DNA from: a bacterium | GTDB lineage: Bacteria; Armatimonadota; Zipacnadia; Zipacnadales; UBA11051 | Reading direction: 5' to 3' | NCBI GenBank assembly: GCA_030604405.1 | Contig: JAUVVY010000010.1 | Span: forward strand, 42,127-106,126 | Length of the DNA: 64,000 bases | Shown: positions 4,825 through 62,160 of the stretch, piece after piece | Position numbering within the stretch: the first letter of the stretch is position 1 | Layout: each line of letters begins with the position of its first letter | Notes under the pieces: generated by a model | The model's input: only the letters and a program-made list of their open reading frames with translations | Databases searched by the model: none | What the model was told of the DNA's origin: nothing | Position numbers and translations under genes: made by a program

Positions 4825-7800
4825 CTAGCCTCCGACACTCACCCACTCCGCTGTCGGACCCACGCGCTGTGAGCCGATCGTGACAGGCTCGCTAGTGCGG
4901 ACCTGCCACTTGTCGTCAGCAGCCGCCTTCCGCAGCCATACGCGGCTCGGAAGGGTTACGGTCGCTTCCCCCGAAAGCGTCAAGTACGGCGAGAACACGT
5001 CTTTGGCCTCGGCGGCCTGTGCATCGTAGGTGAAGCCCGGATGGCGGGCGCAGTGCAGCATCGTCTTGTCCCCTGCCGCTTCCACCACGGTCACCGGACA
5101 GACGCGCTGACTGTCGCCGATCTGTACGACTACGAACTCAACGGAGTCGGGCTGGAAGCCCGACCCACGCGAGGGGTCGGCGTCGGGCTGCCCTTCGACT
5201 TCGCTCAGGGCCTGCGGGAAGGCCCCAATATCCTGCCACGTGCCGTTCAGGCGCAGAGCGAACTCATTTTCACCCAGCGCAACTACTGCCTCAAGCGGCA
5301 GCGCGGGCCGCGACTGAATTGTCACTGCCAGATCGCCTGACTTGAAATAGGTGCAATCGTACAGCGCGATGTCGGTCTGCTGCGCTGTCTCTGTGATCGC
5401 CGCATATCTGCCCTGCAGTCGGGTGCCATCGGGCAGAGCCTCGCTTGTGGCAGGATCGAGTGTGTACAACACAATCACGTTGTCGAACTCCGAACCGGCG
5501 GCCCCGCGTATCTTCAGGGCGACGAGGTTATCGCTGTCAGGGGCCAGGTCGGTGATGTCTTTCACAACCCGTTCTTCCCCTCGTTGAGGCTCCCACACGG
5601 CGATAAAGCGGCTGTGGAGGTTGTCGCCGTCGCGGCGCAGCACCAGCTTCGGCATGCGAAACTTTTCGACCAGCGAATGATCCTCGCCGCCTTTTGCGGG
5701 ATCCCAGCAGCGCCGCAGACTCGGCACCGTACAGGTATAGACATCCCCGTCGGCGGGTTGCAACATGTGCAGACGCAGTGGCCTGATCGAGGCGTCATCG
5801 GTGGTGAAGGTTGCGACAAAGGGGCCGGTGACTTCGCCCTTGTGCACGTTGTGGAAAACGCCGTACCAGGGGTCGGCTTCACCGGGCTCCAGATGGTGCG
5901 GATGTTTCCCCTCGGCGACTCTTTGCTTGATATACTCAGCCGCCGCCGGAGGCGTGAACGGCTTGCCGTCATCAGCATAGGTTTCGGCGAAGAATTCGGT
6001 CGGGACGGATACCTCCAGGCTCTGCTCGGTCATGCAACTGCCCTGCGCCATCCATTCATGGATGCTGCCGCCGGCGACATCGAAGATGTCAACCACCACA
6101 CTGTCACGCTCACCCAGCGGCACCAGAAACAGCGCGCGGCCGTAGCTGCTGCACTGCGGATATACGCGAGCGTCCGCGGCCTCAATGACCTGCACAGCGT
6201 CGTCAGTGACGTGCCAGCCCAGCAGATTGCCATGCTCAGGCGTGCGCTGCTGACTATGGCGGTCAACGACGACCAGGTTGTGACCCAGCGACCGGTCGGA
6301 GAACCGGCGGTAGGTGTGGGCATAGCCGATGTCGGATATCAGTTCGTCCTGGTAGGCCCACAGAATGAAGCCGAGCATGTCACGATGCTCGTGGCCCCAG
6401 CAGCCGGAATAGTGCAGATGTGCCTGGATCTGGTCGCCGTCATCTCTTTGCCCACGGGCCAAGACCCCGTGGCCGAAGGCAGGATACATCAGGGGCCGCG
6501 TTTGCGCCGGTGCCGGATGCCCGCTGCTGACCAGCTTGCTCCAGGTGTCGTGGACCATTATGTAGCTGTTGTCCGGATAAACCATCGTCTCCAGTGTGGC
6601 AATAGCGTCGCGCAACTGCGGGATGTTCTGCCACATGTCAAGTTGCTCGAAGCGCCCGCCGTCAATGGTCGAGACAAAGCCGGGCGGGTCGGTGTAGCCG
6701 GCAGCGACCAGACACCCCTTCGCCATGCCGTAGATGTGCTGGCGGCCGTAGGAGGGGCTTTCGGGGAACGTCGCGTCGGCCATCAGGGTCTTTTCGACAA
6801 GCTGGGTCTGCTTCCAGTAGGCGTAGTGGATCAGTTCGGGCATCCCGGCCGCGCGCCCGATGCAGACAAAGGCCTTAATCTGATAGGGAATGTAGTTGCT
6901 AAGCGCTGATGAGGTCCTGGGGTGGTGGACGTCGTAGCGGACGGCGTCTTTGGCGGTGTCTAGAAACAGGTCTTGCTCTACCACCTCGCGAGCATCGCCA
7001 TCGGCCGCTACTTTGTCCAGCTCATCCCACACCTCGGCCGATACGACCAAGTCATAGGCTAAGGCCAATGTTGTCGGGATGCCGCCGGTGCCTGAATGGT
7101 ATTTATCATACCAGATGCCGCTGTAAACCTGATAGTCGTTGATGGGGCGGAAGCGCTTGCGGCCCTCAACTCCCGGGCGACCGCGGCTGATTTTAGGCCA
7201 GTACGGGACCGCACAGGCAAAGTCATACAAGATAGCGGCCGCCCGGGCGGCATATTGCTCATCTCCGGTCGCCCGGTACAGCAGCCCCAGCCGACGAGCC
7301 GAATTCGCCAGGTGGTAAACGCGCTGGGAGTCCATGTACTCGCCATTGAGGTAAATGCGCTTGCCGTCGGCGGCATCGTGGTAAGGATATTCCTGGACTT
7401 CGCCTTTGGGGCCGGTGATCTCAAACACGCCGGTCGGCGGGAACATGGCGAATACGTCCACCACATGGCCCTTGCTACAGCGGAGCTCGTGTGGGCGGTC
7501 GGGCGTCCATACCAGGGAGCCGCCGTCACCGGTGGGGCATTTGACCATCCTGGTGGACGGCATCACGCGCGCGTTGCCGGCGATGCGGTTGCGGCGCGGC
7601 ACCATGCCCAGGAAGTCCTCGGGCGTCACCTGTAGATAGGGCTCCATGTCCTTGGTCATATCATCGAGCTGCCCCGGTGTGAGCTTCACCTCCGGGCCTG
7701 GCCAGGCGTCTTTGCCTGTAGGAGCCTGCTCGACCATGACGATTCTCTGAAAGGGGCTGCTGCGCTGGTCGCGAGGGACAGTCGCCAGCGCATCTGCCCA

Positions 7801-14299: not shown

Positions 14300-14394
14300 A
14301 TAGCCGTGGGCCGGCCTCACCCGCTGCGAAGCAACGGAGTCGGGCTAGAAACAGTAGTTATGCAGATTCTTCTAATCGTGAAAGGAGCTGTCGT

Positions 14395-14556
14395 TGGAGG
14401 GGCCGTGTCGAGCGGCGGAATCGAAGATTCCGCAGGGAGCCCGGCCCGCGCAGAACGCTATCCTGGCGAGCCCTCCGCACCCAAACGGCCAACGACAACG
14501 GCTGGGCCAGGCTTGTCTGTTTCGCTTCGCGAAACAGCCTGCGACAGGCCCCTCCA
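14395..14556. repeat. ~160-bp terminal-inverted, double-hairpin repeat element (copy A)
   Basis: TGGAGGGGCCGTGTCG ... CGACAGGCCCCTCCA termini; hairpins GCGGAATC-GAA-GATTCCGC (14415-14433) and CTGTTTCGC-TTC-GCGAAACAG (14517-14537); conserved core shared with 61817-61978. Confidence 0.85.
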
Positions 14557-20722: not shown

Positions 20723-20856
20723 TGTCGGTGTCACCTTTACGGAGTCGGGCTGGAAGCCCGACCCACGGGTTTTTGGGGATGCCCGACCTACGCGATGTCT
20801 GAGTGCAAAACAGACCAAATAATATTGCGCGGATTTGTGCAGTCTGGGGCTAGTAC

Positions 20857-61621: not shown

Positions 61622-61680
61622 TGGAGGGGCCTGTCGCAGAACGCTTCGCAGCGCGAAGCCTTCAAGGCTGGCCCACGCCC
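61622..61680. repeat. Partial copy (C) of the GGAGGGGCC double-hairpin element
   Basis: TGGAGGGGCCTGTCGCAG followed by hairpin GCTTCGC-AGC-GCGAAGC (61643-61659) and CAAGGCTGGCCCACGCCC. Confidence 0.7.
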
Positions 61681-61816: not shown

Positions 61817-61978
61817 GGAGGGGCCGCGTCGAGTGGCGGTCGTCACAGACGACCGCCAGGAGCCCGGCCCACGCGAAACGCTATCCTGGCGAGCTCTGCA
61901 CACCCAGACGGCTAACGACAAGGGCTGGGCCAGGCTTGTCGGCTTTGAACGACAAAGCCGACTGCGACAGGCCCCTCC
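61817..61978. repeat. ~160-bp terminal-inverted, double-hairpin repeat element (copy B)
   Basis: GGAGGGGCCGCGTCG ... CGACAGGCCCCTCC; hairpins TGGCGGTCGTC-ACA-GACGACCGCCA (61834-61858) and GTCGGCTTTG-AACGA-CAAAGCCGAC (61938-61962). Confidence 0.85.
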
Positions 61979-62094
61979 ATTACGACTAACGACGCCACAC
62001 CGTCACCGTATGGTTTGACTTGCCCAGAATTTGCATAACTACTGTTCCAGCCCGACTCCCTCCGGCCTACATGCCGTTGTCGTATGGAGGGGCC

Positions 62095-62160
62095 GTGTCG
62101 AACGAAGTGAGGCCGGCCCGCGCCCTCCCTCACTCCGTGGGTCGGGCATCCTGCCCGACT
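62095..62160. repeat. Partial/degenerate copy (D) of the GGAGGGGCC element joined to GTCGGGCA-TCC-TGCCCGAC hairpin
   Basis: TGGAGGGGCCGTGTCGA ... GGCCGGCCCGCGCCC, then hairpin at 62141-62159. Confidence 0.65.

Follow-up and report, generated by a model that had tools for sequence, protein, structure and literature searches.

A GGAG-headed REP doublet family with conserved feet and variable hairpin tips in an Armatimonadota genome

Two similar repeats, here called copies A and B, lie in the 64,000-nucleotide stretch of DNA that we analysed (the window), and they are two of about 50 composite elements, a REPIN of a GGAG-headed REP family. The window is part of contig 27 of a draft assembly (4.37 Mb, 96 contigs) of an uncultured organism, and this assembly breaks at these very repeats. 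The reading that we prefer, at a probability of roughly 0.6, is that the feet of such a GGAG-REPIN are what is recognised, while the tips of its hairpins, constrained only to fold, are changed by template switching and reshuffled among the copies.

The initial annotation had described two copies with conserved ends and core and with different, perfectly paired hairpins, and this description was confirmed. Copy A, a REPIN-like doublet, occupies positions 14396-14555 of the window (plus strand, 160 nt), one base inside the earlier limits of 14395-14556 at each side, and copy B, also a full composite, occupies positions 61817-61978 (plus strand, 162 nt). In copy A, a left GGAG unit of the form GGAGGGGCCGTGTCGAG-[hairpin]-GGAGCCCGGCCC (14396-14447, plus strand; unit pattern match C27:56522-56573) carries the hairpin tip GCGGAATC-GAA-GATTCCGC (14415-14433, plus strand). 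A core (14448-14503, plus strand) separates it from a right GGAG unit read on the minus strand as GGAGGGGCCTGTCGCAG-[hairpin]-CAAGCCTGGCCC (14504-14555; unit pattern match C27:56630-56681), whose tip is CTGTTTCGC-TTC-GCGAAACAG (14517-14537, plus strand). Copy B has the same parts: a left unit (61817-61870, plus strand; unit pattern match C27:103943-103996) with the tip TGGCGGTCGTC-ACA-GACGACCGCCA (61834-61858, plus strand), a core (61871-61926, plus strand) and a right unit (61927-61978, minus strand; unit pattern match C27:104053-104104) with the tip GTCGGCTTTG-AACGA-CAAAGCCGAC (61938-61962, plus strand). Two further matches to the unit pattern lie near copy B, both on the plus strand, namely a solo right-type GGAG unit with the stem AACGCTTCGC/GCGAAGCCTT (61623-61674) and a left-type GGAG unit without its hairpin tip, GTGTCGAACGAAGTGAGGCCGGCCC (62086-62119).

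The feet of the two copies are nearly identical, with one mismatch in the 17-nt left end and none in either GGAGCCCGGCCC or the 17-nt right end; the cores show about 9-10 differences when aligned with each other, and 13 in the multiple alignment of all cores, gaps included. The stems are perfectly paired on the left (GCGGAATC/GATTCCGC in A, TGGCGGTCGTC/GACGACCGCCA in B) and on the right (CTGTTTCGC/GCGAAACAG in A, GTCGGCTTTG/CAAAGCCGAC in B). They had been called unrelated, but the left stems share the base GGCGG...CCGC and differ above it (GGCGG-AATCGAAGATT-CCGC in A, GGCGG-TCGTCACAGACGA-CCGC in B). Both copies fold better than all of their shuffled versions (200 of 200 each; z of -3.9 for A and -6.9 for B), and 39 further strong matches to copy A were found by BLAST in its own genome among the best 40 of 127 flagged (E 1e-62 to 1e-26). 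Taken together, these two results mean that the likeness of A and B is not due to chance. Rfam families gave no match at gathering score within the 64-kb window.

A composite pairs two GGAG-headed REP-like units (GGAGGGGCC-hairpin-GGCCC) in inverted orientation, one on each side of a core of about 55 nt. The left unit has the form GGARGGGCCGYGTCGAG-hairpin-..SCCGGCCC and the right unit, on the other strand, the form GGARGGGCCTGTCGCAG-hairpin-CAAGSCTGGCCC. All fetched loci were parsed, and both stems could be read in 50 distinct composites, 37 from the own genome and 13 from a sister species (G001), whose loci were sampled by similarity to copy A. Half units also occur alone and in genomes of the same order. 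The pattern GGARGGGCCN{20,50}GGCCC has 251 matches in the own genome, as against 7 for the same pattern read backwards, which served as the control; the matches include further unit types (GCATGGAC.., GCATACGAGG.., GAATGGGGG.., GAATAGGG..), and the unit head is GGAG, or GGAA in a subset. Across a sample of 151 genomes of the phylum, the unit pattern is clearly enriched inside this order only, with 229 matches versus 6 in the control (own genome), 145 versus 13, 128 versus 26, 66 versus 8 and 42 versus 4. Named records in which the repeat occurs bear the label Armatimonadota or Candidatus Zipacnadia.

That the stems might be drawn from a limited vocabulary had been raised earlier and was borne out: assigned by hand-made patterns, they fall into about eight recurrent left and about eight recurrent right classes, and these occur in 28 left-right combinations among the 50 elements. 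When a young lineage marked by ACGTCGGAC is left aside, the mutual information between left and right classes is at shuffle level (p=0.43); with that lineage included, p=0.07. Outside the same lineage, no linkage connects the right stem class with the adjacent base or with the end. Elements with the most similar cores do not have their right stem class in common (p=0.17; p=0.53 when the lineage is left out), although they do share the base next to that stem. The left stem class, on the other hand, is common to core relatives (p of 0.0005 or less) and is partly linked to core and ends, so exchange is unequal on the two sides. In 45 of the 50 elements the two outer ends agree, and the ends are also linked to the bases beside the hairpins; since the end markers are each other's pairing partners, some of the linkage between them may be structural. 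Two composites with identical cores, L015 and L031, also agree in left stem class, but their right stems are unrelated. Together with the linkage results, this pair indicates that the right hairpin behaves as a cassette; the left hairpin for the most part stays with its core.

Within this vocabulary pairing is kept. In the right arms, 92% of cells are Watson-Crick paired, compared to 64% after shuffling, and a single pair position may show up to four Watson-Crick types. When right units are joined by one-step changes, 57 of 83 fall into two islands, and single compensated steps are seen; the arms of A (CTGTTTCGC) and B (TCGGCTTTG) belong to separate small islands with no one-step bridge. The replacement of stems or arms proposed in the initial annotation stands insofar as hairpins have been exchanged independently of their surroundings, as the 28 combinations and the pair L015/L031 testify, but the stems are not freely invented, since they form a small recurrent vocabulary with point-mutated, compensated series inside the classes and a left class that follows core ancestry. 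By the same token, the two patterns named in advance as contrary to replacement, a continuous series of point-mutated stems and stems shared by many copies with A and B in old subfamilies, are each present in part.

The loops behave in a manner that point mutation would not be expected to produce. Loops of 3 nt occur in both orientations inside a stem class, and in comparisons of hairpins whose inner seven bases agree we counted nine reverse-complement loop pairs (AAA/TTT twice, ACA/TGT, AGA/TCT, AAT/ATT, AAC/GTT, GAA/TTC, ACT/AGT and GCC/GGC). Composition alone predicts 2.4 such pairs (0 of 5000 draws reach 9) and the pooled loops predict 3.5 (p=0.0008), while the same hairpin set contains no pair related by plain reversal. 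Loop inversion and multi-base compensation are the published footprints of template switching (PMC8794818), and the excess over the 2.4-3.5 expected gives substance to the suggestion, already made from the sequence of A and B, that this process is involved. Stems show no sign of being rapidly replaced where they stand, and an active generator of stems would be conjectural. In the two orthologous pairs retained between the genome and its sister species (L025/L193 and L011/L260), the stem class is unchanged and the remaining sequence has decayed; stem change in place is thus not fast. An element on contig C10 and a copy in a genome of the same genus (G002) were rejected as a further orthologous pair, as their cores are far more alike than their surroundings and conversion or parallel insertion is possible.

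Other palindromes, GGGTACCCACTGCGCAGCAGTGGGT and GTCGGGCTGGAAAGCCCGACCCACGC, lie inside or beside a composite hairpin at L209 (3773-3981, sister species) and at L103 and L124 (own genome), which suggests that new tips may originate from nested insertions. We dropped GAGCTTGTCGA as a dispersed tip motif, given that it has no match in the window and was seen as dispersed only at other loci and by eye.

We searched the sister species for the flanks of 21 own copies and obtained 14 clear matches at 87-97% identity; most of the sites that could be aligned on both sides lack the element there. Most copies are therefore recent insertions relative to the sister species, often of an element of about 300 bp with IS-type inverted ends. 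The insertion at L003 measures 67+160+67 bp, is bounded by ACAGTAGTTATGCAGATT and its inverted partner, and sits within the GTAGGTCGGGCTTTCTAGCCCGAC loop, where it is accompanied by a duplication of about 4 bp; the empty sites in general point to a target duplication of about 3-4 bp. The target sites are loops of small GT[AG]G palindromes, and the orthologous sites that we inspected, all of this kind, look intergenic. Palindromes of this target class, GGTCGGGCNNNNNGCCCGAC, also occur in the window at 5145-5165, 20743-20763 and 62140-62160 (6 strand matches versus 0.04 expected).

The terminal inverted repeat motif has 109 matches in the own genome versus 0 in the control, and in many copies both repeats lie 67-80 nt from the composite, while other copies have one or none. 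A and B each retain one carrier end. In copy A it is the left repeat ACAGTAGTTATGCAGATT (14351-14368, plus strand), which is preceded by GTCGGGCTAGAA, an arm of the target palindrome; the right end is missing. In copy B it is the right repeat ACAGTAGTTATGCAAATT (62028-62045, minus strand), with the left end missing; both repeats are matches to the motif. The carriers at L285 and L286 have these ends too, but their bodies contain other GGAG units. The carrier has the features of a MITE, that is, terminal inverted repeats, a target duplication and empty sites. The 160-nt doublet alone was dropped as the mobile unit because the empty sites show insertions of about 300 bp, though some copies are without carrier ends. 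Moreover, 14 contig ends (C7, C10, C13, C14, C15, C17, C18, C19, C25, C52, C55, C60, C78 and C80; loci L271-L284) stop in one identical sequence, starting ACTGTAGTTATGCAAATTTTGTAGGTTC, at whose beginning lies the carrier's repeat motif. A multi-copy insertion sequence that has been collapsed would look like this, and it would target the loops of GT[AG]G palindromes. A 32-aa C-terminal peptide of this insertion sequence had no match in plasmids. It is plausible, then, that many doublets ride in a non-autonomous element of about 300 bp whose inverted ends match those of a multi-copy insertion sequence.

In relatives, seven RAYTs with GGAG units nearby (L166-L168, L170, L171, L173 and L182) form one clade, and no GGAG units were found near the other parsed RAYTs that fall clearly outside it. 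A profile of the seven retrieved further clade members, most of which have GGAG units within about 100 bp; four in-clade RAYTs lack a GGAGGGGCC unit, two of them (L241 and L252) having other GGAG-headed inverted repeats instead. Clade members score above the cut-off of NF047646, REP-associated tyrosine transposase (REP_Tyr_transpos), and the nearest solved structure is E. coli TnpA-REP (4er8). At L229, L235, L236 and L238, the two units flanking one RAYT share feet but not tips, which is, as far as these sequences go, an independent repeat of what was observed in A and B. In E. coli, the segment contacting GTAG comprises W94 Q95 .. E100 H101 .. R104 (PMC6006769). Nearly all GGAG-flanked RAYTs have W[QE]RS[YF]WD in this segment, followed by R, E, A, Y or T rather than H, while GTAG-type RAYTs keep ..FFDH or ..FYDH. 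Head (GTAG to GGAG) and contact segment hence differ together, a correlation that may represent a putative code.

The linked Y1/RAYT gene anticipated in the initial annotation was therefore found in relatives, where GGAG units flank it, but no RAYT of the GGAG clade was found in the own assembly. The sole RAYT there, at L058, is of GTAG type; it was rejected as the mobiliser since its flanking palindromes are GTAG ones and it does not group with the GGAG clade. This gene (L058 1177-2123) adjoins GTAG palindromes in tandem array, GTAGGGCGCGGGCTTGTACCGCGCC, so that the genome contains a second REP system. Given that the own assembly yielded no GGAG-clade RAYT, present RAYT mobilisation in this genome would be hypothetical; REPs are expected to outlive their RAYT (PMC3686654).

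How could feet be so conserved and tips so variable? The E. coli enzyme reads the head, the bulge and the lower stem, and the upper stem-loop of the REP has a non-specific structural role, its sequence being swappable but its removal not tolerated (PMC8266576). If GGAG RAYTs work like the E. coli enzyme, they would read the GGAG head and the GGGCC/GGCCC foot, and the upper hairpin would merely have to exist; a tip would then be of free sequence as long as it folds, and could accumulate changes, be recopied from one arm to the other, be inverted and be swapped. Tips would change mainly through template switching at the hairpin, with one arm copied onto the other and the loop flipped, and would then be reshuffled among the many copies, presumably with the shared feet as the sites of recombination or conversion; now and then the set of tips may take in other dispersed palindromes. 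A and B would accordingly differ because they carry different members of the tip vocabulary; neither would have made a new stem. What counts against this reading is that the own assembly has no GGAG-clade RAYT and that the fresh insertions resolved best belong to the IS-ended carrier, that only two retained orthologues can be compared and neither changed its stem class, that the left stem is partly linked to core and ends, and that four in-clade RAYTs lack a GGAGGGGCC unit. A stronger version, in which a GGAG-specific RAYT clade with a foot-only code actively swaps and flips tips during mobilisation and so gives rise to new REP classes, seems to us rather improbable.

Equally doubtful is that A and B simply descend in old vertical lines, each with its own stems, through compensated point mutations under selection for folding. 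Each stem is indeed common to many copies, the left class tracks core ancestry, the one-step network inside classes joins 57 of 83 right units, and orthologous copies keep their class. Such descent, however, does not predict a right class unlinked to core, adjacent base and end, identical cores with unrelated right stems (L015/L031), right arms of A and B in separate islands, or the excess of flipped loops. The exchange could instead be driven by a GGAG-clade transposase that cuts at the feet and swaps a unit or tip as a by-product of REP transposition. One RAYT clade is flanked by GGAG units, REP cutting is established for the E. coli relative (PMC8266576), and the right unit acts as a replaceable cassette. 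We nevertheless regard this as still less probable, for the own assembly has no such RAYT, cutting at the feet does not explain swaps within a hairpin (a shared GGCGG/CCGC base with a different tip), and no intermediate was seen. Least probable of all is that homologous recombination and gene conversion among several hundred similar palindromes, with folding unconstrained, produced the whole pattern as a by-product. Hundreds of units with identical feet and the mosaic combinations fit well, but random breakpoints would often fall inside hairpins and leave unpaired hybrids, which the level of pairing (92% versus 64%) contradicts, and a further process would have to account for the inverted loops and for the compensated changes of single pairs.

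The family lies close to the REP/REPIN (BIME) and RAYT (TnpA-REP) systems, with which it shares short palindromic units, high copy number, inverted doublets, a 5' tetranucleotide at the hairpin foot, inverted units flanking a RAYT in relatives and compensated stem changes (PMC2817692, PMC3116915, PMC3686654). Copy number is as high as a REP requires (251 versus 7), and two inverted units recur as one element, as in a REPIN, in about 50 composites of the two species; a cognate RAYT flanked by units, which defines a REPtron, is present in relatives but not in the own assembly. In contrast to known REPs, the head is GGAG, not GT[AG]G, the GT[AG]G palindromes of the genome being separate; the units, of 50-60 nt, have a GGGCC/GGCCC foot that is conserved; the tips of a doublet form mosaics; the RAYT clade has a different head-contact segment; the host is an armatimonadote; and in this genome the doublet is often found within an IS-ended carrier. 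GTAG- and CGTC-tagged palindromic repeats likewise have a terminal tetranucleotide that defines the family and variable complementary stems (PMC3733652), and class 3 CnGA-footed repeats show that other feet exist (PMC6006769), but neither paper mentions a GGAG tag. A search of open papers found no GGAG-tagged REP and no Armatimonadota REP. The family is thus a variant of REP/REPIN, and its GGAG-clade transposases are undescribed in the open literature searched.

The carrier resembles the MITEs of insertion sequences that target REP loops (about 300 bp, ends common with a multi-copy IS, a duplication of about 3-4 bp, GT[AG]G loops), except that its body is a REP doublet of another family; that REPs serve as IS targets is already reported (PMC1525189). 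Template-switch mutations at hairpins combine the same multi-base compensatory change and loop inversion, but were described in RNA genes (PMC8794818), whereas here they would concern dispersed mobile palindromes. The family bears on how new REP classes arise while the transposase stays put ('orthoswitch', PMC3686654), as one genome holds hundreds of units with fixed feet, shuffled tips and loop inversions that resemble a template-switching record. It can now be tested whether RAYTs read head and foot alone, and whether repeat hairpins are maintained by replication template switching rather than by slow compensation.

Two further observations concern the parts outside the hairpins. Composites at L212, L213 and L218 of the same-genus genome G002 have the same GGAG units around a completely different core; going by these sequences, the core appears to be exchangeable too. 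In the own genome, the heads at L010, L019 and L031 are cut by the same foreign end, ..CACCACACCCTTGAC.GGCCGTTTCAT, which replaces the GG of GGAG and is possibly that of another IS targeting the GGAG head.
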